From: Boothiomyces macroporosus
Taxonomy: Eukaryota > Chytridiomycota > Chytridiomycetes > Rhizophydiales > Terramycetaceae
Reading direction: 5' to 3'
NCBI GenBank assembly: GCA_027604185.1
Contig: JADGKB010000016.1
Location: 62,001-126,000, forward strand
DNA length: 64,000 nt
The notes beneath the pieces are model-generated. The model had not been told where the DNA came from. It worked only from the letters and a program-made list of their open reading frames with translations, and did no database searches. The position numbers were made by a program, and so were the translations under genes. Positions 1 to 60,735 of this stretch are shown in pieces; within the stretch, counting starts at the first letter, position 1, and each line of letters starts with the position of its first letter.

Positions 1-3000
1 TGAGAGGTAGCTTTGATAAAAGTCTGGAGCTCCATGCTTCGAGGACGAGGTGATTTCAAAAAATTTGAAACATCAGCCTCTATTATCGCACGCAAAACAT
101 CTTCGCTTTCCAAGCAGTGTCTTAGAATCATAACCACAAGAGATTGATGTGCCGGAAAGCTAGCAAACTTTTCATTCTTCAGGAGAGCAGAAATGCCATT
201 TGACTGAACAAAAAGTTGGGAAAATTCAGTATTCCTAGTTAATCGAACCAATAACCGCAATACGGAATGAAGCAAATCGGAGTCAGTTGATTCGAAATTA
301 ATGATTCTGATTAGTTGTATTAATAGCGTTTCTCGTTCTGCCCTTGTAAATTCACGCACAGAATTCCCTGAATTACTTTCCGAACTATCTGCAGGTTCAT
401 CCACAAGCGAAATCACAGACTCTAAGAATAGCAGAAAGGGTGTATACCAATCTCTTTGATGCTGGCAATTTTCAATGAGAGTAAAGTATTCTGACACCTT
501 CAAATCGATCGAGTATATAATATCTTTTTGGAAAGAATTTTCAGAAGACAGCAATGTAACCAACCTAAAATATGTTGAGAGATTGGCGTTCAAATCTGCA
601 TCGTCCTGTTTCTGAACCAATTTAGCCTTTACTTCAGAGATCTTCTTTCCTACGCTATCGGCAATCTTTTTCATATTATCTTTCGCAATTAGACACAACA
701 AGTCCTTTATAATATAAATGTGAATACTGTCAATGTGTATCAATATTTCTATACATCGAAGTTGAATTTTTGCTTTAGCTTCATCTCTCAGCTTATTCAG
801 GGCCTCTTTTTCAGCGTTTGAGTCTGATTCAGATTCCTCATTGTCCCTATCTATTGTGTCATCCAGCATCAACTCTTCAGATGGAATTTCTGAAGTAGCG
901 TTTTGAGGGTTATCAGCGATTGCATGGTTTGTCAAATCAGGATCTATTGAAATCGCTGGCTGAATATTGATCGCTGATTGTTGGTTTTGCTGAACAGGTT
1001 GAATAGGAGGTACATTATCAGGTGTGGCTGTTGAATTTTCGGGATTAGGTGGTGCTGGGTTAGTGGCAGGATTAGTATTTGGTGTCGTCTGTGCGATTGC
1101 CACTACTTCAGGATGGTTTATCAAGTAATCAGCAGCTCGAGCGACATTGTTGCCACATCTTCTGAGTGCTACTTCGGCAGCACCACGAGGAAAGCCCATA
1201 TCGACGAGAAGAGCAATTTTACTTTCGTCGGGAACAATCGCAGCGGGGTTAATGTGTCTTACGAGCAGGGTTTCTCCTAAAAACGGAATGCGAGCGCTCG
1301 TTGAAAATATGGTGGCTGCTTCACTCGGAACTTCGCCTTCTGCAGCCATAATCTGCGTCACAATTTGAATAACCAATTGAATACAACTGTTCGGCAACTT
1401 TACAAAGTCCTCTTTTTCCCAAATATCTAAAATTTCGGTCAAAACTTTTCCACGAATATGAACCAAGAAGGAATGAGGGTTGAAATATTCGCTGGATTTT
1501 TTTTCCTTCGTACGTCCTGCCATAATACTTGTATGTGAGGAATCATGAAGCATTTTGTGGTTAGTAGCCGTGTTTAAAATGGAAAGGATTGCTTCCACTG
1601 GCTTGGGCAGCTTTGTTGGATCGCCTGAAAAACTTAAATATTTTCGGAGTATGGAAAATAATGACTCTATTCCACCCATCTTTTCAAAAGATACGAGCTG
1701 AGCGGTATTCAGGAATGGAGTAGTTTTTTCATCGCAAAGCAACCCTTTAGTTTCTGCTAAAATAGTATTGTAATACGTAATTTCTTTTCCCTCTGACTCC
1801 AAATTTGGATTTTCAAGATTTTTCAAGAGGAGTTTGGATATGTCATCCACTATATCTTGAATGTGTTTCCGGTTTTCAGCATCTGAAACTTTTCTGGTAC
1901 AGATGATCTTTAGAATTCCTTTAAACACTCCCAGAATATCTTTCGGGATCTCTAGCAGCAAATGTAGGAAATATTCAGCGTTTCTAGAAGACAGCTTTTC
2001 TTCAAATGACAATTTGTTAAACACATCCAACATATTATCAGGGTCGGCTATCCAATGTTCAGGTATTTTTTCTCTAAAGTAAAAGCTTTCCAAGCTGCAA
2101 GATCTACATTAAAATTCACTCACCTTCCTAATTTTCCAAACATTTCAATGAGCTTAGAGCCCATCGGAGAGGTGAATGTAGCAATTATTGAATTAATTGC
2201 CTTGCTATGTGAAAGAGCATGGGAACAAAATAAATCTGTAAGCAGCCTGATATAGCACTTTAGCCCTACCAAATTGTGAAAAAGTTGCGATCCTTCAGAA
2301 ATTTTTTCAGGTTCTAGCAATTACATATTAAACTTACCAAGTGCATCTATATACGGAAATACATAGGACGAATCGCTGGTGTGGTTTAGGAATACAGAAA
2401 TATTACCAAAAAGCCTGTGAACTTCTTCCGCTACTAGATTGGAAGTCTCTTGCAAATTGACCTCCAAGATAACCCGTACAATATAAGAGAGAGGCGCTGA
2501 GGATGGTGATGTCCCAAAGTCATGTGGTATCGCTTTAAGTGTAAAGAACCTGATGAGAAGCTGCAATCCGTTAAATTTAAGAAAATCTTTGCAATGAGAA
2601 ACATTTTGGAATAAGCCTTCAAGGAACTATTGTAAATAATACAGTTACCCTGCAAGATACATCAATCAGCTGGGACATTCTACTTTCACCTTTTTCATGC
2701 TTAATATCCATACCATTTGGACAAAGTTGAGACAATTCAGTCCCTTCGTTAATGTCAACTGAGATGGTCTCTCCAATGTTAATAACCTTTTCCAACATTT
2801 CGATGATTGCAGACATTACCATATCTTTGGTAGTTGGATGGTGCCGTATAAACTCGTCTATTGAGTTGCCAACAAGATGTGGAACATCGTTATCTAAAAG
2901 AGTTTTTAAGTGATCTTCCTTTGTCAAAACAGAGAGGAAATTGCTCATTGGGTTGGCGGAGGTAAATGCCTGCAAGCCAGGAGCATTCAAGCAAATTGCA

Positions 3001-4913
3001 CCAAATGCATTTGGAAAAGCCGAGATGACCTGTGATTAAATAATATTTACCTCTGCTGAAACAGGTAACTCCTGATTGGCAGCATTTAAAAATGCAGAGA
3101 TAACTTGGTTTTCCTGAAGAATGGAAAGGGAAGTAGGCTCATTGTGAATAAAAGTCGACATAATGTTGACAGCTAGCATGTTAAATATTTGCATTACCTA
3201 GTCCGAAAACACCAATACTTCCAAAAAGTTTTGAATTTTCAAAAATTATCAACAGCGATTTTGGCAAACTACTATCAATCAAATTTCTCATTCCGTCCGC
3301 AGTACCAGAACTTTGCATCATGTGTAGCACTAATTTCATAATTGCACGTAGAAGTGGCATTCTGGCTAGCAACTCGCGGTATTTAACAGACGCACCAGGA
3401 TCTATAGAGCTGTAATTTAATTCAGAATCTGAAAATTTTTCCTTAATTCGTAAGCAAGTATCTATTTCCAACTGAATTCGGGTAACTAGAGCCTGCAAGC
3501 CATTCGCTCCTGTGAAAACGTTCAATGCGGGAGGGAATCCGTAAAGTATGTTATCCAGCATGTTGCAACACTTTGCTATAATTTTTAAATGAGTTTCCAA
3601 AGTGTTGTTGAATGAAGATATCAGCAAAGGAATAATTCCAGCAGATATAATCATATTTCCTCCAACCTGCGTTCCAAGAATAAATGTAAGAAATGAAAAT
3701 AATCCTTCCACAAATTCAGTTGAACCTTCCACGTTAGCTTTAGATATACCCAAAGTATTACTTTCAATGGCATTATTGAGTTCCACCATCAAAAAACCGT
3801 GATTTGCAGAGGCATTCATCACTGACAATACTTCATTCAATTTACCACGATAGTGAGCTAAATTGTCCAAGAGTGTTAAGCAACAAAATCTAGCATCTTG
3901 TCCTAGATTGGTATTATTAGCAAGATTTTGCGCTACTTGAGATATCAAGTCGCTTTCAAACAAGAAAATCTTGTTGGTAGCAACCTCTTCAGAGTACAAA
4001 TTCGATAGTACAGCCAAAGACAACATTCGAATGCAATACAGCTTTATCCTTTTTTCTGGATCTGATAAAAATGAACACAGTCGAATTTTCCATAGCAGTT
4101 CAAATGCTCTGTCATCTTCAATCTGATAATCGGCTTTTACTTTTTGAAACTGCTCAAACATTATTTCAGTTTTTGGTTCAGTGGGTTGCAACGGTACTGT
4201 AACTAATGAATCTTGCTTCAAATGTGATTTTGAGTCATCAAAGGGGTCTTGTTCCATTTCAATTTTATCTTCGTCTTTGGGAATTTCTAAATCTGTTGCA
4301 GTTCGATAGTATTGATAGTTTATCATTTCTACTTGAATAGAATTACTAGACAATATTTCATTCACGTCAAGCCCCACGTTCCAACGACCCGCTAATACCT
4401 GATATTTAGATTGACCATTCGTAAAATTCGTTCTGAGCGATCTTTGGGAAGGGATGCGTTGGGCAGGTTTGACTAAAAACCTCAGCAGTTCATACACCAC
4501 TTCATATTCAACTAGGCACAGCAAATTATGCAAATGCTACCATTAAATAACTATTACTTCGTAGCTATTATACAGATTTCTGTTAGTGGCATTGTCCCAA
4601 AGGGTTTTTGTAAGATTCAAAACCGAAAGAAGCAAATCCCTGTCGTTTTCTTCCAGCGGCATCTTTTGATGAGGTAGCTCGTATTTAGTGACTATTCGTT
4701 CAAGAATAGAATCAACACGATTGAGAACTGAAATCCAGTGAAACAGGTCGGTTTTTGGCCAAACCCAATTTCCGAGATTTTGAATTACTTGGATTAGCTG
4801 TTGTTCGTCCACGGTTTGCAATTGCAGTATGATCTGCTCCAGAGTTTTTGGCTGCGGTTAATTTTTCATCTTACCGGTGGAGCTGACCTTTTCAATGTTT
4901 TTGTGATTTGCAT
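1..4913 (-). CDS. TOM1: HUWE1/TOM1-type HECT E3 ubiquitin ligase, N-terminal part (cut by window start)
   Basis: N-terminal ~1,580 residues of a giant ubiquitin ligase; the catalytic HECT domain would lie beyond position 1. Seen: the N-terminus opens MQITKTLKRSAPP (ATG at 4913), then a DUF908-like region and a DUF913-like region containing MPLLRAIMKLVLHMMQSSGT and a NIMSTFIHNEPTSL segment. A UBA domain with an MGFP loop lies at about 1110-1250, followed by a Pro/Asn/Gln-rich and then acidic linker. Seven introns restore the frame: 4852-4874, 4537-4557, 3173-3197, 3030-3050, 2627-2648, 2314-2337 and 2104-2123 (20-25 nt). Known for the family: polyubiquitinates unassembled ribosomal proteins, histones and other nuclear clients. 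The start codon is 29 bp from that of the divergent TCF25 gene. Identity is firm; only the C-terminus is unseen. Confidence 0.92.
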
Positions 4914-4942: not shown

Positions 4943-6653
4943 ATGAGGTCTTTCAGGAAGCTGAACAAGAATGAACTCCAACAGGAAGAGAGTGAAGAGG
5001 AAATCGTGTATACAGAAAAGAAAATAAATTTATTTGAGTTGGTGATTAGATACTAATTGAAGCTTGACGACGACACTGTGCACAATGAAGAGCCAAATGA
5101 AATCCCTCAAGCAGAGGAATCCAATCCCGCCCCTAGAAAATCAAGAAAGAAAAAAAAGTCAAAGAAACCCTCAACTCCTGTTGAGGAAGATATCGATTCG
5201 ATAATTAATGAAATCAACGAAAAATATGGAAAGGTAGAGTCAGTTCAGCAGCAGAAAGATTTTGCAAACATCTGGAAATTGGACATCAGGAATTTGGATT
5301 TCAACTCGGAAATGAAAAGAAAGTTTGGAAGTGCTGTTGAAGCAAAGAAAACGGGAAGGAAAAAGTATATCGTGGCTCCAAAATTAAGCTGGCCAAAGGA
5401 TACTTCTCTAGTTAACATGGAATTGATAGGTACGTTTATTACTCATCAGAACGCGATCCATTGACGGATGTTAAACAGTTTACCTTGATACATTCCAGGG
5501 ATTATCAATCCTTGCAATTTCAGTTCTACAACGCTATTGAAACTCATGATCCTAATGCGATATTTTACATCTTGGAACAGTATCCATACCACTTCTCTGC
5601 TTTGTTACAGATGAGCGAAGTTTGCAAACAAAATGGGGATATAGATACTGCTTTTGAATATGTTGAAAAATGTGTCTATGCCTTTGAAAAATCCCTTGGC
5701 AGCTCGTTTAAATTGGATGGAAAAGCTAGATTAAATTATGACAGAGTTGAAAATCGTCCAGTTTACTTTGCACTATTCAAATATATACAATTTTTGTCCC
5801 GAAAAGGTACAATTATGTAACAGTAGGGTGTTGGAAGACTGCATTCGAAATACTGAAATTTCTCTTTAGTTTGGAACCTGCAAGTGATCCTGTCTGCTGT
5901 TCACTTCTGTTTGACTTCTTTGCAATCAAAAGTGAAAACTTCCAATACTATATTGACTATTTTGAACAGCTTAAAGATGAGTTTGATCTGGAATATTTAC
6001 CAAATAGCTGTTTTGGTGTAGCAGTCTGTGAATGGGAAACTAGTAAAGTAATACAAGTATAATTCATCTAGGATAAAGAAAAAAGTACGCAACTATTGAA
6101 ATTGGCCATTACGAAATTTCCATCTGTGGTGAGGGCAATCTATGAAAAATTAGAGATCTATGATCCAATAATGCAAGACGATTTCTTTGGGGAAGTTTCT
6201 AATCCATATTTACGATTCCTGATTACTTTACATGTAGAAAATATGTACTTTACTTGGAAAGTTCCTGAACTTCAGAATTGGTTAAAAACCACCGCCCAAA
6301 AAGTATTTGAGGTAACCGTAACTAAATTTTAGGATTATAAAAACTCCCGATTGAGCTGCACTGATGAGCTATCTTCATTGAAAGATTACTATGATAGTAG
6401 AAATGCTCTACCCTTAAACTGTCAAAGAATAGTCATTCTATCGGACGCATTAAACCTTATTCCATTCATACCAAAAGGAGCAATGGATAATTTACTAGCG
6501 TTTGACCCATTCCCACCAGAGTCCGCTATCAATGGACCATATGAATCAATTTACTTATCAAACGCAAAATCAAATTCTTCAGCATCTATTATCGAACAGT
6601 TAGGTGGATGGTTTGGTAGAATCGGAAACTCATTATTTGGTCAAGATGAGTGA
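4943..6653 (+). CDS. TCF25: TCF25/RQC1-like ribosome quality control protein
   Basis: 534-residue protein of the TCF25 (yeast Rqc1) family, which works with the Listerin ligase in the ribosome quality-control complex that clears stalled nascent chains. Seen: N-terminus MRSFRKLNKNELQQEE followed by an acidic/lysine-rich low-complexity stretch (residues ~45-75). The conserved helical core follows, with HSRDYQSLQFQFYNAIETHD, LEQYPYHFSALLQMSEVCK and GCWKTAFEILKFLFSLEP. Five introns: 5042-5062, 5430-5449, one after 5809 (20 nt), one near 6038-6061 (24 nt, or 15 nt if a nearer donor is used; both keep frame) and one near 6312 (21 nt, with a TAACTAA branch-like motif). The TGA stop abuts AATAAA at 6653-6658. 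Divergent from TOM1, convergent with the acyl-CoA synthetase. Confidence 0.9.
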
Positions 6654-6688
6654 ATAAAGTGTTCCTAATTGTAGACATAAGCTTTATT
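6653..6688. terminator. Convergent poly(A) signals of TCF25 and acyl-CoA synthetase
   Basis: AATAAA at 6653-6658 on + begins in the TGA stop of TCF25. On the minus strand AATAAA at 6683-6688 contains the TAA stop of the synthetase. The two 3' ends are about 30 bp apart. Confidence 0.6.
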
Positions 6689-8855
6689 CCTTGATTTGCT
6701 TGTACATATTGTCAATTTCGCTTTGGTACTTAATTTTTGCTTCGTGCCTTTTCAATTTAAAGGTTGGGGTTAAGAGACCGTTTTCGACCGTGAATGGATT
6801 TTCTTCAAAGTGAATAGCTTTTACATTTTCAAATCCTTTCAATCCTCCTTCTTTACCAACTTGTCCCAAAAGCTTCACAAATAAATCTTTGGTCTTGGAA
6901 TTGCCAAGAATTTCAGAAGTAGTACCAGTTAAACCTTGCCCATTGGCCCATTTGGTAAATTGAGGGACATCAGGAACTAATGTTAGGGATATTTGTCACC
7001 AATGATTGCAACTAATGATGATTTTAGTGAATCACCATATACAAATGCTTGGGCAATAGTCTCATGCTTTTGATACAAAATTTCAATCCTACAGGTTAAT
7101 GTGATTTTTACTTTTCTGGAGCAATATATTCCCCTTGTGCGAGTTTGAAAATGTTTTTGACTCGATCGATAATGTGCAATCTACCTCTTTCGTCCCAATA
7201 GCCAATATCACCAGTGTAACACCATCCATCTTTGGAAAGAGTTTCAGCTAATTTAAACTCCGTTTACCTGTTTTCGATGGCTCTTTATAATAGCCTTTGA
7301 AGACGTTATTTCCTTTGACACAAATTTCACCTCTTGGGTACGGTTTGTCTTTTGAAGAGTAATTCATACTTGGGACATCTCTAAGTTTCACCATACATTG
7401 CGGCATTGGAATTCCAATATGGCCAGATGAAATATCTTTCATGATTGTCTACGGTTAATCAAATTAAACATACGGTACATGTTCCTGCTGTGGTTTCAGT
7501 TTGACCATAGCCTTCAATGAGTTGAATTGAAAAACAAATTTTCAAAAAGTCAGTGACTTCAGCAGAAATTGGCGCTGCACCTGTAATCATACATCGTACT
7601 CGCCCACCTAGTTTTTCTCTTACTTTTCCAAATACTACATAATCCCACACAGAATGTCCAACATACCCTGACTGCAACCAGTATTTTTTTGCTTCGTATG
7701 CGTAGTTAAATACTGAAGCTGATAATCCTCCGGCTTCCTTAACACCAGCCATAACTTTATCGTAGATTCGATTGAACAACCGAGGAACAGACACAAAAAT
7801 AGTTGGTTTTAATTCAGCAACATCTTCGAGGAGCTTCAGTGTATCTCCTTGATAAAAACCAACGCTTGCACCTACATATATGATGTATGCTTGCACTACT
7901 CGCTCAAATATGTGGGCCAAAGGCAGATAAGAAATGTGCACATCTGAGGAATTGAAGTTATACAGTTCTTGATTTTTTGCCATATGAAGGGCACCAGTGA
8001 CAAATGACAGGAGATTCCCGTGTGAAATTACCACACCCTTTGGCAAACCAGTTGTACCAGAGGTAAAACAAATTGTAGCAATTGTATCAGCATTCGTAAC
8101 AACTCTGTCTTTCACATTTCTTGAACCTTCGGTTTCAAGCTCTTCCAGTTTCACAATTTCTACTCCCCCTTTTTTGAATTTCTTGATTTTGTCGGTAATC
8201 TTATTATCCATAAGCACAATTGTTTTTAAAGTTGGCAATTTGTCAATCATTTGCAAGAGAAATTCGGCCTTATCAGAAGTTGCCGCAACAATTGGAATTT
8301 CACATAGACCAATAATGTGGTTGACTGCTTCGTCACCAAGAGTGTCATATAATGGAACATTGATGTAGCTATACATATAGCAGGCTTGCTCAATTAAAAT
8401 CCATTCAATTCGATTGATGCTGAAGATCCCAATTTTGGCATCCTTCTTAAATCCACGATTAACAAGCGCAGAACTATTTTTAGAGTTGTTTACCCCAAGT
8501 TTCTCACTCTTGCATATACTTGATTGTAGGTTTGCCATTCGTATGGGCCAAATCCGTTTTCTTGGGGAATGCGCGCTCCAAGATAGTTTCTTTCCGCTGC
8601 TTATTAAAATTAAATACCGGATATTTGCACACCACGAAGAAAGTTGTCATGCAGATTAGAGATTCCTGGTGGTAGATTGATATCCTCAAGGTTTTTTCCA
8701 TAACAGGAGATTGAGCGTCTTGGCTATATTTAATTTTCAATAACCTTTCCTTCACCTTCAATATCATCTTCATCTACTTCATAAGTGTACTGGTAATTTG
8801 CTTGTGCAGTCAAAGGAGCTTCTGCCACTGATTTTCTGGATCTATTGCCACTCAT
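6684..8855 (-). CDS. Long-chain acyl-CoA synthetase (AMP-forming)
   Basis: 672-residue ACSL/FAA-type enzyme: activates long-chain fatty acids with ATP and CoA for lipid synthesis or beta-oxidation. Seen: AMP-binding P-loop motif [12 protein letters not shown], then [36 protein letters not shown], the hinge/linker-type segment [18 protein letters not shown], and C-terminal [17 protein letters not shown] typical of ACSL. Eight exons with seven introns of 20-25 nt; splicing rebuilds SLVAIIVPDVPQF and [14 protein letters not shown], as expected for the family. The ATG at 8855 gives a polar N-terminus ([14 protein letters not shown]) without a clear transmembrane anchor. The TAA stop sits inside an AATAAA signal. 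It could serve the peroxisomal oxidase at 39.9 kb, but that link is inference. Confidence 0.93.
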
Positions 8856-9841: not shown

Positions 9842-9923
9842 TGTTGTTCTAACAAGTCATATCAGCCACACATGATTGTCGTGTTTGATCATCTCCTAAT
9901 AAATTTTAATCTTCAAATTTAAC
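9842..9923 (+). repeat. Left LTR-like direct repeat
   Basis: 82 bp, near-identical to 10701-10781 and ending 10 bp before the ATG of the Gag-like frame. Confidence 0.6.
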
Positions 9924-9932
9924 TATCCTAAT

Positions 9933-10823
9933 ATGAGTTTACAGAGGCGAGAAGAAGAATTCGGATCCACCGATTTTTATTCAGCCAAAAGGGATCTCAA
10001 GGCTGTAAAAATGGATGGTATTGACCTCACTTCCTTTTGGAAAGAATACAACACGAAGTATGCGCATCTTTTGGCTTGTGGTGGAATGATGTCCTATGCT
10101 GACCAACTTGAAACAGTATTGGAAAATGTCCATCAGCGCTTTTACCGGGATGTTATCATTTCTACGCGCAAGTCAATCGGCAATCTCCAGTCTGAAAAGA
10201 TCAACAGATCTCACTTCACAACCTTAAGGTCAAATTTGCTGGAACATTACAATGTCACTCCAATTGTAGAACGTCAAGAATTTCAACGGAAGGCGCTGGC
10301 ACATTCAGCCAATGGAAACAATTCTCCTAAAATGATGTGCGACCACTGCAGGAAATACAACCGCTATCGAATTATGCGTACGCATACCACTGACCGTTGT
10401 CGAATTGGTGATCAGTTTACTTGGAATAGAAATTCAAAAGTTGCAGATTTCAATAAAGGAACTGAACAATATTCCAATTTTTCTTCCTCATTTCATGATT
10501 CTGGTTCAACCCCTAAGAGCTTCTTCAAAGATAAGCCCGATCAATGTGTCGATTCTACAGGTTTTGTCTCTACTGCCAACAATGGCAAAGCTCAAATTGT
10601 TGGTACTGGCTCAGTTACATTTGGAAAAATGACCTTGGATGATGTCGCTTATGTGCCTACTTTTGCTAAGAATTTGGTCTCAGGAATACAAATAGTTGAA
10701 TGTTGTCCTAACAAGTCATATCAGCCACACATGATTGACGTGTTTTATTATCTTAATAAAATTTTAATCTTCAAATTTAACTTATCAATGACATATTATT
10801 TTGAGTCAGTGGTAGAGAGTTAG
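9933..10823 (+). pseudogene. Copia Gag and truncated protease-like frame
   Basis: 296-codon open frame. Residues ~1-120 resemble a copia Gag helical region. A zinc-knuckle-like Cys/His cluster follows at ~135-155 (CDHC, then H and C spaced HTTDRC, with an enlarged middle spacing). From ~205 comes a retropepsin-region pattern: the usual D-S-G-A is DSTG, followed by GTGSVTFGKMTLDDVAYVP and TFAKNLVSG, as in copia protease/pre-integrase segments. The frame then runs straight through the right-hand repeat (from 10701), so the last ~40 residues are not native. Gag plus protease without polymerase means it cannot be autonomous. Confidence 0.6.
10701..10787 (+). repeat. Right LTR-like direct repeat
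   Basis: Copy of 9842-9923; begins TGTTGTCC and may end at the CA of 10786-10787. Confidence 0.55.
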
Positions 10824-11092
10824 AAGACCCAAATTGTCCTCATTTCATGGTTCATCATCTTTCGTTCAGCCTCATAAACGATATTCCAATGTTATGGAAT
10901 GCTAGTGATAAATGATGACTCGAATTCATAAAAGTTCAGCTGAACTTATTAGTTCGTGTTATAGGCGAACAATATGATCTGCCTACTTGTTTAAGAATTA
11001 TTACTAGCTCCGATTTATTCAAAATGATTTGTGATTTAATGTTTTTAGAAAGTGGCATCTTCAGCTACAACATTTTTTCCACAAAATATTTC

Positions 11093-12505: not shown

Positions 12506-12534
12506 TACGAATATTCTTTTCCAATTTCAGAGGC

Positions 12535-18399: not shown

Positions 18400-18443
18400 G
18401 AAAAAGGGTGGAAAATAAACGTGAAAAAAGTTAAATATTAGAA

Positions 18444-20136: not shown

Positions 20137-20248
20137 TTGGAAACCCTTTGAAGCGATTGTCTTTTTTCACAATGACAGGTGATTGTCTGGCAGACCAATT
20201 CTGGCGAACCAGTCCCCAAATTTCAATTATAAAAAAAGATATTCGTGT

Positions 20249-21082: not shown

Positions 21083-21280
21083 TATATTGATTTTAAAAAG
21101 GAAAAATTAGCACAATGAGTATGAGGTAATTCAAACCTTGATATTCCAATGTAAACCGCCTTTTCCTATAGCGCGCCAGTGCCGAATTTAGTCAAGTTTG
21201 TAATTATTACTTTAAGCGAATACTTTGCCGCACTCAATCTGTAAGATGGCTGGAAATCAAAGAGATTGCTGTCCTTTATT

Positions 21281-29781: not shown

Positions 29782-29791
29782 ACCGTTTATT
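29777..29791. terminator. Shared palindromic stop/poly(A) element of convergent Nse3 and 7TM-G
   Basis: AATAAACCGTTTATT is a palindrome apart from its centre. On + it holds the TAA stop of Nse3 (29779-29781); on - it holds the TAA stop of 7TM-G (29789-29787). The two coding regions are 5 bp apart, and both AATAAA signals overlap the stop codons. Confidence 0.65.
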
Positions 29792-46900: not shown

Positions 46901-49900
46901 GCTTTCAGCATACTCTATTACTGAATCCCCTAATCGGATACAAGTTGCTCCGCCAGATTTGAATGTGTTTTTCTGCAAAACAGAGTCTAAAATTGGGTCC
47001 AATTCTTCCTTGATGTTTTCAAGCAACACTGGCAATCCAAATGTAATGGCGTTTTCCAAGTTACGTACAAAATCAGCATCTGTCAATTTAATAATGACCA
47101 ATTTATGATCCTTTTCCATATTCTTTACCCATTTGTTTGCTTGCCCTTGTGGATCGATCATTAGTGGCCATCGTCTGGCATTTGAGACTATAATTCCGTT
47201 ATCAATTGAGAAGTTATCTGTTGGTAGTCCAGCTATAGCCCAGTCCCTTATTTTAATAGGGTCACCAAGAACTTTTGAAAAAACTAATGGCTTTGTGCAA
47301 GGCACATTGTATTCCTCAAGTTTTTCTACCCAGTTGTTGATACACTCTTGTCTGTATAACTTGGTGAAAGCACCCAAGTAAGCTATGATACCAGCAGAGA
47401 TTAATACATCCCCAGTCAAATTGTGGAGTGTTCCGTCCAACTGCTCCACTACTTCTGTCCATCTTTGTTTCTCTCCTCCCAATCCTGCAAGTAGCTTCAA
47501 AGCTCTATCCAACTGCTCACTGCAGGACTTTACTTCCTTTTCTAGTCGATCTTTCTTATCTGCAAGTTGTTGCAGATTGTCATTGAGAGCCTGTAATCTA
47601 TCAACCACTTCTTTCAAAAGTGCTCGTTTCTCATTCAGTACGACCATTGTTGCGGCAAGCTCCGTTTCAGCCTTTGCTAATTCTGCTTGCTTTGGCGCTA
47701 CTACTTTGATAACCCGATCATATGCTTCCATTGCAAGAACCCAACTACACAACCCTTCGGCAGCAGATGACGCGTTCTTTACCTTTTCTGGTTTGAACTC
47801 TGGGTTGGGCATGTATACATCTCTAATCTTCTTAATAATAGCCGGAGCTATATTGTCCTTGTCGTATGTTTTCAAGACACTCAGGAAACCTGGGTCTCCC
47901 AAAAGTTTTTGGGATGGCTTCCAATAATCCTGAATCATTTTACCCGACCCAGTTGGATCTGGAATTTTGTCAGGCTTAATGTCTTTCATTACGCAAATGG
48001 ATTCCATGACTAACTTTACTCCAGCAGGTGGATTCTTCATACTTTTCACCAAGTCTATATCTGTTTTTTTCAATGTATCCAGGGCATTAAGTGCAGCATT
48101 TAATAATGGAATTGCCTCTGCCAAGTCATTTTCGCATTCCTTTTTCATTGCCTCGGATTGGGCAGCTTTGCTTGCAGCCACTGCTTCATCTGCAGAAACC
48201 GTTTTTCTAGTTGCTTCGACATCAACAGATTCTTTTTCAATTTTTACCAACATTGCTACAGTTTCTTCACTAGTTTTCTTTAGCTGTGGTTGCAGGTTGG
48301 TCAAATCAATCTGCATCTGAGATATTTGGTTTGCTGCGAACTGCAGTTTTTCCAAACCTCCAGAGTATCTTTTCCTGATAGTCAAGATTTTTTCTTTTTG
48401 ATTGAACAGCAGCTGTTTGTATGCTTGCAGCAGCTCGAGGTAACTGGTAGGAGTAACATAATTGTTTCTGGATAATGCAGCCAAGAATTTTGCAGACATT
48501 TTGATTGTATACTGGTGAAAGTGTTGACAAATATTGACTACTGCGCTTTGCAAGTTTGGCTCAATGTCCATATCACTGAAAAACTGCTTTGCGACAGCTT
48601 GGAGCGCATCATCTGGCCATGCTTGGAACCAATCAATAGTGCAACAATTTACGATGCTGGAGAACATTCGAAGTCTTGACCTAAAAGCTCCACCAATTGG
48701 CGACATGCAAAGTACAATATGAAGATTTTTCTTGACTCTTTCGATAAAGAAGTTGTATATTGCCATCGGGCTTCCATCTCCTTCCTTGCCTTCTTCCAGG
48801 GCTTGAGGGCCAAGTTTTTCAACAATGACTTGTCTTTCATCAAGTGTAAATAAGTTTGGAACATCCCCAGAATTCAAAAGACCGTTTACGTCTTCAATGA
48901 AAGATTCCTCTTTGATTTTCGTATCAGGGAATAGGAACACAGTCTTATTGTTATCCCTGCCAGCCATCAAAAGTAATTTTTTCAGATCTTCCCTCCATTC
49001 TGTCTTTGAATATTGTTTGGAAATTTCAATTTGGAATATTTCGTACTTTGCTATAAATGTCGATAGGAGGGTCAAGCTCTGTCTACCACTGCCCCCAACT
49101 CCGACCAAAAGAGCATTTCCACCTGGAAGTTTAAGAATACGGCATATCTTTGAAATATGTTCAATAGCAAACCTGAATAGTACAAGATTAAGCTTGGATT
49201 TTTTCACTTGATTGTACTCTGCAAGTTGAGACTTGCACATTTCTGTAATCTCGTCATAATTATTGAGCTCTTGATAAAAGTTCTCCTTTCCTGGTACTTT
49301 TGGCGCAACAAAATCTCCAAACATGATGTTTCTCATATCCTCTTCCTGAATAACCTTTCCATTTTCATCCGCACCAGTAGCAACTTTTTCAAATACCTTG
49401 TTTGGATCTACTTGGAAGAGATTCTTGATTTCTGTTTTGATAAATTCAAAAATCGCTCTTCTGTCTTCATCTTCAATCAATCGATCGTAATACACTCTGT
49501 TGACTTCATGAGACCATAGTCGTATTATTTCATCTTTTGCACTGAATGCTGCTGGGTGAGACAAAACAATTCCTTGTATTACCCGTGAGAAATCCCTCAA
49601 ATTGAATGTGTAATGGGTCTTTGCTGGGGAAGGTAGTAGATTCTCTACTGCCCACTGATAAACGTGCATTGTTGCGGTGACAATTTGAGTGCCCATTAAT
49701 CTAATCTCCTCTTCAAATTCAAATCGCTCAAAGTGCCACTTTACCACAGCATTGAAGATTGTTAGCATGGTATTTTCATCAAAAGAATTTATGACAATCT
49801 GATTGAAGTGTCTTTGGAATCTAGGAGTGATGAAATTCCTACCCCCACCAGGTGGCCCCATAGCAGATATTAATTGAATATCTATGAGATCGATCTTTGA

Positions 49901-52900
49901 GGTATCTTTTCTGTCGTACCAATTTCCATGATCGCAGAACTGTCTAAATAATTCAATTGGAGGCTGGGCACCATACTGCTCTTTTGCAGGCATATTTAAA
50001 TCGTCTATGAAAATGATAAACTTTTTGCCAAGAGGTGCTCCAAAAACACCTTTTCTTCTCTTGTCTAGTTTTGCCATTACCAAGTCTTGGATTTGGTTGG
50101 CGCTTGTTTGAGCCGAAAAGTTTATAAACATTGGAATGTAGATATTTTTAGGTATGCCCGTTAGCAGCTTTGTAGATATGTATTTTGACTTTCCTGTACC
50201 AGTAGGACCAACAAGGAGAAGAGGAACATCATTTCTAATCATAATGTCCATTAAATAGGTATATCTCGCAGTGTCCTTGGTTGATATCAAAATATCATTA
50301 AAGTCAGCTTCTGGAGAAATTGTGGCAGGTGTAATTGTGTCGGTCCAGAGCCTCCATTCGTCAATAAGCTCCTTGGTATTATATATGTAATCATATACCA
50401 AATGTTCCGTTGGTAATGGTGTTAAAAATGCAGGCTCCATCTTTGCAATTTTGTTTCTAACAAAAGAGTCGAACTTTGACTGACCAACAGAATCCAAGCT
50501 CCCACCAATCGACCAAGTCATGCAGAAAACAAACCAGGATTGTAATCTTTGGGGAAGTTGGAAATCTGAATCATTTGTTTCCATGGCGTTTTTGCTGATT
50601 AGTTCAAAGTGCGAGTTCAACAGTCTAATCAGTGAATTTACGAGTCCGATTTCAGAAGTTGGTGCCAACTCTTTGCATTCCATTCGGACAAAGTAAAGTG
50701 CTTCTGGAACAAAATAATCAAACAGCCCTTCTATTGAATTCTTTGCGTTCTGAGATAAATAAGTAATAGTATTAAACCAAGACAATAATAATGGCTTCCA
50801 TCCTAATCGTTGCGGCTCCATATAAACCATACCGCATCTACTGACAGTGGCCGGTGAAGCTACAGCTAAATCCATTACTTCAAACATCAAGCTCATTGTA
50901 TTTGATAATTGAATAATTTCTCCACTCATTAAACACAATTTTTTGTTGTCGTCAAGCACAGTATTCATGTTTTCAATCCAAATTGCATCAACAGGACCAT
51001 CAAAGACCACCCATTTTCTATCTGGACTGATGCTGCTGGCAAAATTTCTGAAACTGGTAGCTAAAACACCATCTGTCCACTCGTGGGATACTGGATCAAA
51101 TTGCCCGTATAATTGGCCCATTGTGATTGATTTGGGATTCAATACTTTGTACTGCACCTTTAGCCACTCTGTTTCACTTCCTTCCGGTTGATTAGACCCA
51201 ATTTCAGTCAGCGCATCCGCCAATACTTTGTATGCACTTGTTTTCCCAGAAAAAGGCTCTCCAACAAGCATATACCCGTGTCTCACCAACATCATTTCGT
51301 AGAGCTGGATTGTTTTTTCCACAAAAGCTGGCACCATTTGCAAGTTTAGCTTTTCGCAAGCCTTTTCAATTCCAGCTTCCAAGATTGCATAATCTGGTTT
51401 TGGCAGTACCACTCCTGGGAAAAGATCACTGGTGATTCCTTTGAAAAGAGAAATATCTTGAGACAAGAATTTTGGCAAATTGACATCAATAATTGAGCGC
51501 AGGACCAGGATCTGTTCATCTTCGTCTGGATACTTTAACTTTAGATTTCCTGCTGCTGTTAAAACACTCTTGACTGCTCTCATTCCGTAATCATAATGAT
51601 CTTGACTGGATAATTGCTCTGAACAGAGCCGATACGTTGCAGTAATTTTTCTTGCTAGATTTCTAGCCCCGATAAATCCGCACGAATACAAGGTAATTTC
51701 CGAAATAAGAGTGTAATCGGGAACCATCATAGCAACCGTTCTAAATAATGCTTTCAGATTGTCTGGCAATTCCGATCTTCCAGCGTAGCCAGGATTCATA
51801 GTAATAAACACCGCGCATTGGGGGTTCAATCGCAGTTGTGTTCCTTCGAATGAAAATTCTTTAACGCCCATAGCGACAGCTCTTTGAATGGTCAAAACTT
51901 GCTGGGCGACCACCGAAAGTACTTCAAGGTCGATTCTATTAAACTCATCAAAACAGGCCCAAGCGCCTGAAGAAGCCAGTCCTTTGAAGAACTTGCCCAT
52001 GGCCAAATAATCCAGTCCATCCGAGCAATTAAATACTACACATTGCTTTGCCAACGCTTTCGCCAAATCTTTTGTGGTTTCAGTTTTTCCAGTTCCTAAA
52101 TTTAAACTTTAGCTACCTGCTGGTCCTTCTGGTGCACCTCCAAGATTGAGATGCAAAGCACCAATGAGTGTTCTGTAACATCGATCAGTCAAAGGTGTTA
52201 TGACCAATCTAGCAGAATTACCCAAGTATTCATATCCGTATTTCTTGTGAGCATTAATCATTCGCACTATTACATTTCCGTCTTCCCAGTAATATCTCAA
52301 CTGAGACAGCCAAGAAAAATCATTCAACTCCTTTACTTGATCATTGATCAAGTTGTTGACCACATCTCTTGCATGTACATCTATTACCACAAGAGCACCC
52401 AGTGTGTATCTTGCCATTTTCGGGAGCTCACCTCTAACCAATTTGATGATTTCATTCAATTCATCGTTTGACTTTGCTAGATATGCCTCCATTGCCTGTT
52501 TCCCCTCCATGATTGCCTTTTCTAATCCAAGGGTCCAAAATATCTGACTGACTGCGATAACAACCTGACCTGGCCACTCTAATACGAATTTTTCCCTTGG
52601 ATTTTGTGTAAATGCGGTATACGCCAATTGTACGGTATGTTGAACACTGCGGATCATCATGCTTTCGACACCGCACAACCACTTTTCCACCGAGCCCTTT
52701 GCTTCAACTGTAGACACTTTTTCCACAAGGGGCAGCCTTTCCTTTTCAGAAGAGAATAAACTAACTATATCCAGGTTTTTATCAAATTCCAATGTAGCTA
52801 CCCCTTCAAAGCACTTTTTCAAATGAGGTTGAACTCTTGTTGGATCCTTTGTTTCGCTAAGAATTTCAAGCATTTCATCATTAGACAGGAAAAAGAATCT

Positions 52901-55900
52901 TGGGAAATATAATCTCTTGATCTCCAAATAAGAATTCAAGCCTTTGAGAATTTCTTCTAGGAAAACGGTGCTTTTCTGGAGATCTTCCAACAAGTTTGGA
53001 ATATCAGTGACTACCATGATGTGTCTGTCTTTGTTAATAGTCTAAATTAAATTGCAAATACCGTCATCATTTTTCTCCATCCAGAATCCACCATTTTGAA
53101 CTTTTTGCCCTCCTCGGGCATTTGATTCATGATGTCTTCGCTTGAAAAGATTGGTTCTAAATATAGCCAAGTTGCTTGAACTTTAAGCCATTCGTCAAAT
53201 ATTTCTTGAGAAAGAATGAGTTTTCTCTCCCACTCTTTAATTTGCTGCTCGAAAGGTTTGATATATGGCGAACTGCGCATACTCTGTGTTTTAACGATTT
53301 GATCGTCCAAAAGTTGTTGTGCATCATCTAGTCCAGCAAGGACAAATGTTCCCGATTCGCGATATGGCAATAAGATCAACTCTATTGGCTCCCATTCGTG
53401 TTGCATCTTTGTCAGGTTCTTTTCCAACGTATATTCTTTCGATGCAGCGTCACTACACTCTTGGAAAAGTGGAAGGAATGGTTCCAGGTTCAACTTTAGC
53501 ATTTTGCGTAAACTTGACTGGCTATCTGGTCGAATCTCAAATTTGGCGATTTCGCTCATCTTATCCCAGTGTCTTTCACGCATACCTGGATTACAGAGCA
53601 CCTGCATCAGAGGAATGTTGACAACAAACTCGTCCATTTTTTCCTTAATTCCGTTTGCAATTTTTTCTGAAGCTGGGGCATCAGAAATTGTACCCATAAC
53701 GCGATGCAAATCTCTTTTGATGGTATCAAGCTCTCCCTCGATTTGTTCGGCATCCAGCTCCAATAAGCTTCCATCCATCCAACGTTTATACCCTTTCTGA
53801 AAGTTAACTGCAGTGGTAAACAAAGCTTGAAATGGTTCTAAAGTGGCAAGAATTTTCTTTCTTTGAGGATAAGACGTAATTGGCCACCCAAACAGGGCTT
53901 CTTCCTTGTTGAATCCAGCAACAGTTTCCTGGGCAGTTTGAAGTTGTTTGGCCAAATTCTGTGCCTTTTTTACATAAAATGGCATTTCATCCAAATCTCC
54001 AACTTCGTGTAATTCATCGACCTGAGTTTTTAATTCTTCAAGCTCTTGCTCGAATTTGACTCTTCTTTCTTTTAGCAGATTCTCTGATTTTGATTTTGCA
54101 GATGTAATAATTTGATGATGGTGATCTAGAATAGGGGTTATCTTTTGTGGCCAAGTAAAAGTTATTGTATTCAGCTCCATGTGCTCGGCGGAAAGTGTTG
54201 TTAAACTGAATATACTCAATATTTGGTTTCTGGATTCATCCAAACATTGAAGTAGATCTGGTAATTCTACATTAATTATTTGCTCCATATATTCCATTTG
54301 CTCTGCCATTTCTTTGAAGCCATCGGGAATTCTGAGGGCTTTCTCTTGAATGACTTCGTACCTTTGGCAAATCTTTCGTTGATTAGTAATATTGTCATCG
54401 ATAATCTTTTGGATGAACCGCGATGAAATTTGGTTGATTCTATTGATAAAAACCCTATGCAATTCTGTGGTATTGATTTCTAGTAATACAAGTTCTTCTT
54501 TTTGTGGGAATTTGAGCAATTGTGTAATTAAGGCTTTGAATTGCTGTATTTCCTATTATAAAGTGAGTCTTACCATTAAGGTCTCTTCAAAGGTATGGGG
54601 CTCTTCAAAATAAGCTGCAACAGCTGTATCCAAGTGAGGAGAAAAAAGTTCGCAGTAGTAGTCATATCTATCAGTGAATTCTTTTGCAATCGCAAAGCTA
54701 TTTTTTGCGTATGATTTCAAAAATTCTACAGCGTCTTTGGAAATTTTTGGATCAAGTTCAACCGGAACAGAGGGCGAATCCCCCAATAAAATAGAAATAC
54801 TATCCGTAGCTTCGGAACTAAAGTCTCTTTGATCGAGTCCCGCAGTTTTGATTAGGTTGGCTTCTTTTTCAATAATCGGTTTTGATGACGGACTGAACAA
54901 AACTGATTCAAAAGCCGGTAGTGAATCCAAGGTTGATAGTAGAAACCTAATACTATCTGTCAATACTTCATCTATCTCTTCCAGCGGGGGATCAAATTCA
55001 ATCTTGTTGGTAGAAGTGTTAATTTCAAGTCGAACATTGAATCTAGGAGATTTTTGTTCTTTTGTTAGCCCATCCAAAACAACAGTTGCTTCATCATACG
55101 ACTTTAAATGCAGTTTGAACAAGTTTAGATAATCATCAAGTGATCGCTTGATAATCCCAATAAATTGATTGTGCAGAGAGGTTTGAAGCGATTTGAAGAA
55201 TGCACCTGGAGGTCTATCTACAGGAACGTTCTTTTTCTTAACAAAAAGCTTTGCAATGCATATGCGAGTAATATGAGACATCCAACTAACGTCAAGAATA
55301 ATTACCCATTCCAAACCGCGTTTCTGCACTTTTCTGTTTGCAAGAGCAATAGACTTCGGAACGAAGATACTCTATAAGGATCCCTTTGATTTCTAATTGC
55401 ATTGGTTTCAATTAATTGAAGGTTTGAAAACTTGAATCCGAGGGACAAGATTTCATGGTGAATTGGGTGAGTGATGAACAAATTATGTTCAAGGTAAATC
55501 TTGCTTTCGATATATTGCTGTTTCCATGCTTTGAATATACTGAAATCAAACTTTTCGACTTTCTTTTCCTTTCTATACTTAATTATTAAAGTACTTTTCG
55601 CCCGTTTTTGAAGGCCTCTTTAGGATATAATCAACCGATGATTGCCTACTTGATTCAATGAATTCGTCATTCACTTCATCCAAAAGTTGTTGGATTTTTT
55701 CTGGAAAGTGATTTTGGAGCTTCATTGGAATAAAAGCCAGGATATGGTCAATCCACGAATCATCCAAGTCAGCAACACCGCAAGTTTGAATGGTGTCGTT
55801 AAAGTAAGAGTAAAAGGCTTCTATTATTGCATCATCTCCAACATTCACTGGCTGTGAATTTATCAGCCTATTCAAAAGCTGATGCGTTCTTGGATCTGGA

Positions 55901-56524
55901 GCAAAACTTTGGGGCAAGTTGGTCAATAGCAATGTTGCATATTCATCTAGATTATCGTTCAATCACCTTTCTGAGCTGCCGCTTCACTGTTTTGTTGGTC
56001 GCTATAATCAAGAAACAATTACATTAAAAAATCAACTAATCGCTCTCTAAAATTCGTCTTCTTTTTTACTTCAGTAATCTCGCTGCGATTTTCCACTTTC
56101 TCTTCCACTTGCATTTTCAACTTGAGCAGCTTTTGTTTTTGAATGGATTCTTGTGGTGAATAATTCTTTGCGTTATCCAGTCTCATCCACTGCTCATCGA
56201 TTATATGAGAATGGTGCGTGTATTTCTTTGGTGGTGGTGGGTTTACTTTGATGCGTTCATACAAAGCTGGTGGCATCACCGTCTTGTTTTTCCTAGCACG
56301 TTGCGATGCTTTTACCAGTTCTTTATTAGCGGATATTCACCTTGTAATGTCATGGTATTTTTATATCCCTTAGATAGGCTGTTTTCCAAGTCTACATCTG
56401 TGGGTACATAGTCTGCGATACCCAACTTTTTTGGTGTAGTTGCAAACCTTTTTTCAGCTGTACTAGACCGTTTTTCTTCCATTGCTGGTTTATCATTGAT
56501 TGGTGCCAATGCTGGCTGCTGCAT
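43985..56524 (-). CDS. Axonemal inner-arm dynein heavy chain (DNAH3/7/12 type)
   Basis: 4,102-residue motor of the flagellar axoneme. Eleven introns of 20-23 nt; after removal the frame is open throughout. Seen in order: Pro-rich N-terminus ([13 protein letters not shown]), tail with [20 protein letters not shown], linker, AAA1 P-loop [17 protein letters not shown] (~residue 1,420) with [19 protein letters not shown] and [11 protein letters not shown]2 [14 protein letters not shown]3 [12 protein letters not shown] with FIDDLNMP, and AAA4 [11 protein letters not shown]. The stalk coiled coil follows around [19 protein letters not shown] with the microtubule-binding tip near MESICVMKD, then AAA5/6. 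It ends [31 protein letters not shown]. Length and C-terminus fit the monomeric inner-arm DNAH3/7/12 clade. The last 22-nt intron is needed to add LQLDD. Confidence 0.95.
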
Positions 56525-58489: not shown

Positions 58490-59888
58490 ATGGATTCTAG
58501 CGATGAAAGAGATTCTGATCAAGAAACTGTTGATTCCTCAGTTGATAACAGTATTAGAAGGTCAAGTAGATTCAGAAAGAAACTCAGAGTAGATGTTCAG
58601 CAGCCGGTAACACCTAAACTGCCAGAGCCAAGGATTCTTGGGGTTCAGTCTTGTTTGGAAAAATACCAGTTTGTTTATAAGCTTACTACCGGGTTTAGTA
58701 TCGGTGATATCTGCTGGACCTGGGACTCTACGCAAGAGCTGTGGCCTTGCCTGGTGGTTGCCAAAAGAAAGCTAGCCACTACCTCTGCTGTATCCAGCCC
58801 AGCAGTTCCAAAAACCCAGCTAGTTGAAAGCAAAAACATTTCTGAAGAACCTAAACCTAGCAGTGACAAAGTTAAAATGGAAAATGGAGATCCTGTTAAG
58901 CAAGAGCAAGACCTTCAGGTTGAAGTGAATATAAAAGCGTAAACGCCAGCTTAATTATAGAGAAGAGAAGGAACTAAACGACCCTGAAAAATCAATACTA
59001 GAAAGTCATGCGACAATGTTTGAAAAAGACAAGGAGCTCGAGGGTTACTCGCTACTCCTCAACAAGCGAATTTCAGCATATTACCAAGATAGATACGAAT
59101 ATTATGTTCAACTACTTCCTTTATCAACCATTGAAACGGACTTGGAGGCAGAGTGGCCCTCCACCACAACTGACATGATATTGAAACAAGATTCAAACTT
59201 GGCACCTCTGTATTACTCTTCCGCACCGTATTGCGATGATGTACCTAGATATAATAGAGCTCTTATTCAGTCCATAAGCATTAGATCTTCATGGGCGGTT
59301 CCGTGTCCCAAAATTGAAATTTATCCAGTGCCAGACTTTCAAGAAATAGTTACACCTCCAAACCATACAATTCCAGTTGTTTTGTCAAATAGCAAAGTAA
59401 CAGGAAATTACCAAGGAGCAAAGTTGACCCAGAATGTGATAGAGCCTCAGGTGGCTGCGAAATTGAAAGGATCTGTTGTGGACTTGACTAGCGACTTGCT
59501 TACGCAGGGTATATCACACTGGAAGTCGAAAGGATCTATAAAATACACATCCAACAGTGACAAACCAAGCGCGAAGCCGCAAACGCCATTTCCTATATCA
59601 AAAGAGTACCAATATTGCAGATTAGGTTCAGAAATAATCAAGATTAATGATACAGTTATATTGACGAATAATTTACCGATGCAGGTCAAGAGAATCAAGC
59701 AGCAAGACGATTTGCTGATTTTTGATGGAGTGCTAATCTCTACTAGCACAAAATCCGTGACTGTTGATTACAGAATGGTCAAGTGTAGATATAATGTGGT
59801 GTTTTTGGGGGGCGAAAGTCTGGTTTCTGGACAGGTGTGGTGGGATGGTAGTACTATTGTGAAGGTACATCGTAAAGTATACGCCTAA
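58490..59888 (+). CDS. Unrecognised protein, possibly chromatin-associated (PWWP/Clr2-like features)
   Basis: 458 residues, two exons split by a 22-nt intron near 58939 (NIKA to EEKELNDP). N-terminus is acidic/Ser-rich, then basic SIRRSSRFRKKLRV (possible nuclear signal). FSIGDICWTWDSTQELWPCL resembles the GD-W-WP pattern of PWWP or Clr2-type domains. A Lys/Glu-rich disordered region, a helical segment with NKRISAYYQDRYEYYVQLLP and a C-terminal beta-rich domain (YCRLGSEIIKINDTVILTNN; LGGESLVSGQVWW) like BAH/Clr2 folds follow. I cannot assign a family with confidence; a heterochromatin or chromatin-reader role is inference. Confidence 0.65.
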
Positions 59889-59961
59889 ACCTAATAAATA
59901 TATATTTAATATATTCGAGCTTTTCATAATAGAGTTTTGTATTATCAGAGAGAAGTACCGG

Positions 59962-60039: not shown

Positions 60040-60206
60040 CTGTTGGTCGCAATCTCTTTAATATCAACAAAGCTCAGTTACTAGCGCTTCATCTGTTTTA
60101 CGCGGGTAATTCTTTCCACTACTTCGGATGAGCCAGAATTACTACCCCTTTCCTACGCCACTCGTGAAACAAAAGGCAGCAGCAATCTTGCTTTTTCAAA
60201 ACAAAA

Positions 60207-60735
60207 ATGGTACGCATTTGCTAATTCAAGTCCAGCGGAGTAGGAGTTTCAAACCAAGTGCTACAAACTTATGAAGATATGAAATTGGGTAGAAAGTATG
60301 CATACATTGTCTTTGCAATTCAAAATTCTACTGAAATCATTGTTGAGAAAACAATGACTACTGAAGAGGCTTCCAAATTATCTACGCCGGAAGTTTACGA
60401 ATCGTTCAAATCATCTATTCCAAAAGATGAAGCTCGTTACGGTGTGTTTGACCTTGAATACGACTTGGGCCAGAATGGAGTTCGTTCCAAATTGATTTTC
60501 ATTGTTTGGTAATTGGCACTAACGCAGGAACCCAAGCGAAGGTAAAATCAGAAGCAAAATGATTTACGCTTCTAGCAAAAAGGCTCTTAGGGATCGTAAT
60601 TATGTTTTGATTGTAGGTCTGGATGGAATTCACCAAGAAGTTCAATGCAATGATTTGGATGAATTGGCATTCGAATCAGTGTTTGAAGTTGTAGCACCAA
60701 AAGGCGCTACTTTTAAAACCGCTAAAGAAGAATAA
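60207..60735 (+). CDS. COF1: Cofilin / ADF actin-severing protein
   Basis: 162 residues. Binds and severs ADP-actin filaments. Seen: MSSGVGVSNQVLQTYEDMKL with the regulatory N-terminal Ser after a 21-nt intron that directly follows the ATG (60210-60230), an intron position well known in fungal cofilins. Also YAYIVFAIQN, KDEARYGVFDLEYD, and a second, 19-nt intron restoring FIVWNPSEGKIRSKMIYASS followed by KKAL, the actin-binding long helix. The C-terminus is somewhat longer than the usual ~143 residues. The stop overlaps AATAAA. Confidence 0.95.

Follow-up and report, generated by a model that had tools for sequence, protein, structure and literature searches.

Introns of about 20 nucleotides, very probably spliceosomal, in the genome of the chytrid Boothiomyces macroporosus

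Ultra-short introns are already known from several eukaryotic lineages, and it is against these that we describe here the introns of about 20 nucleotides (nt) found in a 64 kb stretch of the genome of Boothiomyces macroporosus (positions 62001-126000 of contig C16, hereafter the window). In the heterotrich ciliate Stentor coeruleus, introns measure 15-16 nt (PMC9505925), those of mikrocytids 16-17 nt, with 224 of them in Mikrocytos mackini, and those of the Bigelowiella nucleomorph 18-21 nt (both PMC10245619), whereas Paramecium introns have some 25 nt (PMC2483917) and the type B introns of Trichomonas vaginalis from 23 to about 25 nt (PMC12316389). A reading of the window made from its letters alone (the sequence-only reading) had named nucleomorphs and some ciliates among the few lineages concerned, a list that has to be widened with the heterotrichs, the mikrocytids and Trichomonas. 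Irimia and Roy state that intron-rich lineages with short introns show no branch signature and a weak splice consensus, which is a generalisation and not a definition (PMC2483917). A search of open-access literature by titles and the beginnings of abstracts found no paper describing introns of about 20 nt in a chytrid.

The observation itself is confirmed: introns of about 20 nt are real in B. macroporosus and stand well above chance. We infer their removal from the mRNA from frame and homology, and it is very probable that the segments are U2-type (major-class) spliceosomal introns, shrunk near their working minimum and removed by intron definition. What sets them apart from the known cases is the chytrid host, the density and the strong, positioned branch motif. 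The flagellated, fungus-like host supposed in the sequence-only reading is indeed a true chytrid (Chytridiomycota, Rhizophydiales, Terramycetaceae), and its assembly of 15.2 Mb in 216 contigs can be called compact in view of the 24-72 Mb given for five other zoosporic fungal genomes and the 10.5-11.2 Mb of two sanchytrids (PMC8371127).

The cleanest evidence comes from a test that dispenses with any gene model, namely the spacing of GTA...YTRAYN(1-2)YAG motif pairs in a 264 kb sample made up of the window and 20 pieces of 10 kb, each taken from a different further contig. Pairs spanning 19, 20, 21 and 22 nt numbered 51, 74, 41 and 12, a total of 178 against 24 expected; the remaining lengths from 14 to 60 nt gave 2-11 pairs each (mean of 6.0 per length over 30-70 nt), and between 25 and 60 nt no length showed an excess of such pairs. 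Length 18, with five pairs, lies at background level, so that 19 nt forms a sharp lower edge. Over lengths 18-23 the ratio of observed to expected pairs was 5.12 for GTA, compared with 0.99, 0.84, 0.60, 1.48 and 2.29 for the decoy donors ATG, TGA, GAT, TAG and AGT, the last two of which may be raised through possible overlap with real sites. When the acceptor motif was reversed or scrambled, the ratio was 1.07 or 1.25, respectively.

Gene models point the same way. A purpose-written gene finder, whose coding model was learnt from long open frames and which treats introns explicitly, was run with GT...AG as the sole signal and any length from 12 to 300 nt allowed; of the 76 introns that it called, 34 measured 19-23 nt. 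Among the 256 possible donor/acceptor dinucleotide pairs, GT-AG yielded the largest number of frame-joining segments of 18-23 nt in the prior-free model (35, as against 18 for the runner-up), which upholds the GT...AG ends originally proposed. In a consensus-free rerun (lengths 12-60), GT-AG introns of 18-23 nt made up 105 of 197, while 11 other dinucleotide pairs yielded 14-44 segments in that range, the highest value (44) belonging to TA-GA, the image of GTA...AGA shifted by one base. A YTRAY motif lies near the end of 75 of these 105 introns, whereas for introns outside 17-26 nt the figure is 10 of 76.

Once it had learnt the signals of the short introns, the finder predicted 349 introns in the 264 kb, and the narrow length range is that of the dominant class, since 328 fall within 17-26 nt (mode 20; 69, 128, 83, 25 and 12 introns of 19, 20, 21, 22 and 23 nt). 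Only eight measure 27-60 nt, a minority class of 37-57 nt. For 220 kb of predicted coding sequence there are 328 short introns, or about 1.5 per kb, which by extrapolation would mean near 19,000 in the whole genome. In the window, the trained model has 85 introns. Of these, 79 measure 17-26 nt and are spread over 19 genes; two are longer, with 41 nt (13051-13091) and 42 nt (27456-27497), and the remaining four, joins of 104-175 nt, were judged false. This agrees closely with the sequence-only reading, which counted some 81 introns in 20 genes, two of them outside 19-25 nt. The same reading had held such introns to be genome-wide and, as far as a sample can tell, the 10 kb pieces from the 20 other contigs resemble the window in intron content. 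It is equally true that the spliced lengths are divisible by three (82 of 82 complete multi-exon models), although this carries no weight as an argument because the construction of the models forces it. In-frame stops occur in 60 of 89 short introns whose length is a multiple of three and in 55 of 97 and 93 of 142 of those with other lengths, so that nothing clear emerges from the 328, and a detection bias would in any case mimic stop-codon selection in the former. Of 217 internal exons flanked by short introns, 11 are shorter than 60 nt, fewer than the roughly 29 that an exponential distribution predicts, a scarcity that may come from detection or from selection.

The geometry of the introns is nearly fixed. 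When the first AG is taken as the end, the four combinations of a loop of 13-14 nt before the branch A with a tail of 5-6 nt after it hold 54, 47, 44 and 34 cases against 4-5 expected each, or 179 against about 18 together; the branch A is therefore the 14th or 15th intron nucleotide, followed by 5 or 6 nt. The branch motif of YTRAY type noticed at the outset a few bases from the AG is thus present and positioned: 231 of the 328 model introns carry it, against a shuffled mean of 38.7 and maximum of 55, and an earlier AG stands between branch and end in just 11 of 238 model introns with YTRAY. Consensus-free calls have A at +3 (87%), A at +4 (62%) and T at +6 (54%) of the donor, with G at +5 in only 12%, and T at -9 (68%), A at -7 (79%) and T at -3 (67%) of the 3' end. 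The commonest donor is GTAATT (43 of 328). G at +5 is rare throughout the sample (12-18%) despite a canonical U1 5' end.

The genome encodes much of the machinery that would be expected to act on such signals. The 5' end of the U1 small nuclear RNA (snRNA), read directly as ATACTTACCTG, has a canonical pairing stretch; U2 was found twice, with the canonical GTAGTA pairing stretch read directly, U6 carries ACAGAGA (read on the reverse strand), and a U4 gene is present. SF1 and U2AF-large are encoded too, and in the models their own genes carry introns of 19-24 nt. The Cwc25 protein contains MGGGDLN, the Met of which we take, by homology, to be its start, although the automatic model begins 43 residues further upstream. 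Some matches, those to Cwc25 among them, come in equal-scoring pairs (C49:3542 and C100:5137; C36:45043 and 87227; C20:74242 and 119309), which suggests duplicated or haplotype stretches in the assembly. The proposal of ultra-short spliceosomal introns is in this way supported by the GT-AG ends, the positioned YTRAY, the U1 and U2 pairing stretches, U4, U6, SF1 and U2AF-large.

A mechanism can be sketched from these elements. U1 would recognise the donor GTA(A/T)(T)T, and SF1, then U2, would recognise (C/T)T(A/G)A(C/T), with its A at the 14th or 15th intron nucleotide. The 3' splice site would be the first AG, usually ending 5-6 nt past the branch A; as there is no space for a polypyrimidine tract in between, it is probably chosen by distance from the branch and not by a U2AF-bound tract. 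The 13-nt spacing, with its sharp lower edge, is probably the smallest lariat loop that the B. macroporosus spliceosome accepts. Splicing in the cell, lariat formation and this reason for the 13-nt edge are all steps that we infer.

Set beside the described systems, B. macroporosus shares with Stentor a fixed geometry, mostly GT-AG ends, a 5-nt tail after the branch A and the presence of snRNAs. It differs in that Stentor has its branch A at nucleotide 10 (or 11), as against 14-15 here, that Stentor is described as having no strong branch consensus whereas the motif is strong here, and that the glycine plug of Cwc25 is reported lacking in Stentor while the MGGGDLN stretch is present in the chytrid; moreover, 18% of Stentor genes have introns (PMC9505925), in contrast to the 101 of 144 B. 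macroporosus models with at least one predicted intron of whatever length. The Bigelowiella nucleomorph has a near-identical length range and a similarly high intron density, but its 5' splice sites are described as restricted to GT(A) with no branch signature, in contrast to the positioned YTRAY (PMC10245619, PMC2483917), and it is the relic nucleus of an endosymbiont, whereas here we deal with a fungal nuclear genome. Mikrocytid introns are likewise ultra-short, uniform and conserved in sequence, although they belong to a parasite with a reduced spliceosome and few introns, far from the roughly 1.5 short introns per kb of coding sequence seen here (PMC10245619). The type B introns of Trichomonas resemble those of the chytrid in being short and having a branch motif, but they number 24 in an unrelated, intron-poor lineage (PMC12316389). 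The weak splice and branch consensus generalised for intron-rich lineages with short introns is not found in B. macroporosus, where the branch motif is strong and positioned, and so these introns run against the notion that such lineages lack a branch signature (PMC2483917).

Homology across the predicted junctions provides a further view of the introns. With introns of 19 and 21 nt removed, actin has 375 residues that align gaplessly with a solved actin, and cofilin has no gaps around its junctions 2 and 3 (junction 1, at residue 1, is outside the alignment). For NAD(P)H-hydrate epimerase (NAXE), MCM7 and long-chain acyl-CoA synthetase (ACSL), 7, 6 and 6 homologues, respectively, were chosen from the 120 listed for each, and 17 of the 19 junctions, including a 43-nt tandem in MCM7, had no gap within 5 residues in five or more of the chosen homologues. 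The MCM7 protein is 91% identical to that of Terramyces sp. JEL0728 across 81% of its length. The two genes of this set that lie in the window are organised as follows.

6684-8855, minus strand: ACSL gene, with 7 short introns; the deposited protein HK103_001936 maps here
8724-8744, minus: ACSL intron, 21 nt, in the deposited model; flanks gapless in 6/6 chosen homologues
8597-8617, minus: ACSL intron, 21 nt, in the deposited model; in the junction gap test
8474-8493, minus: ACSL intron, 20 nt, in the deposited model; site of the Terramyces insertion
7449-7473, minus: ACSL intron, 25 nt, in the deposited model; in the junction gap test
7248-7267, minus: ACSL intron, 20 nt, in the deposited model; in the junction gap test
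7089-7111, minus: ACSL intron, 23 nt, inside the deposited 208-nt intron; in the junction gap test
6977-6999, minus: ACSL intron, 23 nt, sharing only its 3' end with the deposited model; in the junction gap test
32545-33316, plus strand: NAXE gene, with 5 short introns
32629-32649, plus: NAXE intron, 21 nt; flanks gapless in 7/7 chosen homologues
32733-32752, plus: NAXE intron, 20 nt; gapless in 7/7
32784-32803, plus: NAXE intron, 20 nt; gapless in 7/7
33020-33040, plus: NAXE intron, 21 nt; gapless in 7/7
33108-33128, plus: NAXE intron, 21 nt; gapless in 7/7

All 618 residues of the deposited B. macroporosus protein HK103_001936 match the window letter for letter. Its model shares five of the seven introns predicted for ACSL (21, 21, 20, 25 and 20 nt), and such introns are therefore already partly in public annotation; it then has a single 208-nt intron engulfing the two other short ones, which deletes 54 residues kept by the four other homologues shown. 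For NAXE, no protein named Boothiomyces or Terramyces was found among the best 120 matches, some of which are nameless, and this suggests, without proving it, that the model is missing or broken in the deposited annotation. Because the deposited ACSL model shows the problem and the NAXE result suggests it, gene models of B. macroporosus and related genomes may err where pipelines prefer longer introns. Relatives were also scanned for retained introns, which would appear as insertions of 5-10 residues; the scan covered 358 sequences, two MCM7 rows of more than 1000 residues being excluded. Two of the 31 insertions, in Terramyces and Kappamyces ACSL, fit a strict intron pattern, and a 9-residue insertion in Globomyces MCM7 (P0123) does not. 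This line of evidence is weak, save for the Terramyces ACSL (P0243), whose 8 extra residues sit exactly at the site orthologous to window intron 8474-8493 and are compatible with a retained intron of 24 nt.

Several results weigh against the interpretation of these segments as U2-type introns. The trained model partly builds in the consensus that it reports, the independent evidence being the length-free run, the motif-pair scan and the consensus-free rerun. Likelihood gain alone leaves GT-AG outside the best 12 of the 256 pairs; its gain is equalled by that of AT-rich pairs such as AA-TT, and this measure was thus rejected as uninformative and the length-specific count used instead. Two of the 19 junctions fail the gap test, one at MCM7 residue 58, where the protein is one residue shorter than its homologues, and one at ACSL residue 106.7, owing to an insertion present in the Terramyces row alone, and acyl-CoA oxidase shows one-residue gaps near its junction 1 and at its junction 3, the other two being clean. 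As for the machinery, the U1 match falls 0.7 bit below the Rfam cut-off, and an Rfam model search of the genome did not find U5, which is no proof of its absence. U2AF-small was not found in six inspected stretches that cover eight of the 17 zinc-finger matches; U2AF-large keeps an RKLNYWD stretch at the position where human U2AF-large binds its partner, and for this reason absence is not claimed. The inventory of U2 small nuclear ribonucleoprotein and SF1/U2AF genes that the sequence-only reading had suggested is in consequence partly filled, with U1, U2, U4, U6, SF1 and U2AF-large on one side and these two on the other.

One rival explanation is that the segments are artefacts of gene finding or assembly, such as frameshift errors or chance GT...AG stretches that restore the frame. 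About half of the GT-AG introns called without a consensus are probably spurious (42 of 76 outside 19-23 nt; 92 of 197 outside 18-23 nt), and many dinucleotide pairs bring similar likelihood gains. Nevertheless, a spacing peak that rises above a flat background with no gene model, gapless homology across the actin junctions and most of those of NAXE, MCM7 and ACSL, and the same introns in an independently made annotation refute it in the main, and we give it next to no credence. It is also highly improbable that the short segments are merely ends or parts of longer introns: the deposited ACSL model does swallow two short introns in one of 208 nt, and a minority of 37-57 nt exists (the eight of 349 at 27-60 nt), but that 208-nt intron costs 54 residues held by the four other homologues shown, and the motif pairs lack any excess at 25-60 nt. 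A size far below the usual spliceosomal minimum might finally speak for removal by other means, such as cleavage and ligation of tRNA or Hac1 type, or DNA elimination. The GT-AG ends with their positioned YTRAY motif and the presence of U1, U2, U4, U6, SF1 and Cwc25 genes make this very unlikely.

Some introns of intermediate length appear to be composed of short ones. Exact division into abutting units was found in two of the eight introns of 27-60 nt: one of 57 nt (19+19+19) in the gene for a METTL2/6-like methyltransferase (L016, 8632-8688, minus strand) and one of 43 nt (21+22) in MCM7 (L018, 89-131, plus strand). In 20,000 shuffles of each, an exact split arose once for the former and 291 times for the latter, none as good as the real one. 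The MCM7 tandem site is gapless in five of six homologues, the sixth lacking that end; the match of the METTL protein to the solved METTL6 starts downstream of the tandem junction, and removal there rests, as a result, on frame and a motif. A scan at the middle threshold gave three zero-gap unit pairs versus 0.17 expected per gap value. One of the three, on the minus strand of L025 (strand coordinate 7687), was discarded, since homology makes its second unit read as coding sequence of a DEAH-helicase-like gene. A looser scan (47 loci plus the window) found 23 unit pairs with gaps of 0-3 nt, including a zero-gap pair in L040 that overlaps the coding sequence of a gene model. L025 9063-9155 (plus strand) holds four units of 20-22 nt that resemble introns, with ATG between neighbours; if all four are taken out, the frame is preserved and a stretch of Asp codons remains, and the frame is likewise preserved in the alternative of the gene finder, which removes three and leaves the second unit coding. 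At the start of the Isy1 gene (L043 1259-1299, plus strand), two intron-like units of 20 nt have a single A between them, a 22-nt intron being the alternative. A tentative explanation, to which we give somewhat less than even chances, is that zero-length exons are tolerated and that abutting introns of 19-22 nt (METTL2/6-like, MCM7 and possibly the four L025 units with 3-nt exons) would be removed successively by recursive splicing, each round with a lariat loop of 14-15 nt set by a rigid ruler from branch to 5' splice site. In the recursive splicing of animals, ratchet points where a 3' splice site abuts a 5' splice site subdivide very long introns; the 19+19+19 and 21+22 tandems share the abutting sites but consist of whole introns of 19-22 nt.

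The remaining genes of the window and their introns are listed below; the designations HUWE1/UPL-like, TCF25-like, ChaC-like, Sec1/Munc18-like, LMBR1-like, PRL, MFS and axonemal dynein are presumptive and marked as such.

1-4913, minus strand: HUWE1/UPL-like gene (DUF908/DUF913; presumed), partial at the window edge; 7 introns at 4852-4874, 4537-4557, 3173-3197, 3030-3050, 2627-2648, 2314-2337, 2104-2123
4943-6653, plus: TCF25-like gene (presumed); introns 5042-5062, 5430-5449, 5807-5826, 6048-6071, 6312-6332
11207-11225, plus: intron of 19 nt in a ChaC-like gene (presumed)
12782-14155, plus: Sec1/Munc18-like gene (presumed); introns 12855-12874, 13051-13091 (41 nt), 13230-13249, 13468-13486, 13706-13725
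14205-15334, plus: cyclophilin gene; intron 14460-14479
15341-16221, minus: membrane-like protein gene; intron 15758-15780
16305-19242, minus: LMBR1-like gene (presumed); introns 18815-18834, 18739-18759, 18515-18534, 18444-18469, 18209-18228, 17895-17915, 17664-17683, 17569-17588, 17418-17440, 16802-16820; two further joins, of 104 and 107 nt, are doubtful
23708-28025, plus: TRAPPC9/Trs120 gene; introns 24068-24087, 24567-24586, 24699-24717, 25945-25966, 26053-26071, 26375-26394, 26506-26524, 26849-26869, 27456-27497 (42 nt)
29496-29781, plus: small gene; intron 29691-29709
30887-31534, minus: gene; introns 31437-31456, 31272-31290
31801-32369, minus: protein-tyrosine-phosphatase-like gene (PRL type, presumed); introns 32125-32144, 31973-31993
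33388-34748, plus: MFS transporter-like gene (presumed); introns 33509-33527, 33819-33839, 33960-33978
34994-36448, plus: MFS transporter-like paralogue (presumed); introns 35097-35117, 35529-35547, 36293-36312
39922-41843, plus: acyl-CoA oxidase gene; introns 40163-40181, 40364-40383, 40517-40537, 41031-41050
43985-56524, minus: dynein heavy chain gene (axonemal type, presumed); introns 56321-56340, 56002-56022, 55947-55966, 55573-55594, 55286-55305, 54553-54573, 53042-53061, 52096-52116, 45786-45806, 44423-44445, 44004-44025
58490-59888, plus: gene; intron 58939-58960
60207-60735, plus: cofilin gene; introns 60210-60230 (directly after the ATG), 60509-60527, 60596-60616

Among the joins judged false is one of 116 nt (10819-10934) upstream in the ChaC-like model. 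Amid these intron-rich genes lies a mostly intronless family of membrane-like proteins of about 270-310 residues (19267-23496, 28035-28907, 29787-30605, 42178-43020 and 43060-43932), with no Pfam match in the six stretches scanned, and a Copia-like retroelement fragment (Pol_BBD) occupies 9903-10820.

Ultra-short introns, which have been discussed for ciliates, a nucleomorph, mikrocytids, dicyemids and trichomonads, are now found in a chytrid with a seemingly normal spliceosome. The physical lower limit of the lariat, at 13 nt ahead of the branch A, lends itself to study beside the structures of fungal spliceosomes, and B. macroporosus, whose machinery looks ordinary, would be a natural test of minimal intron size.

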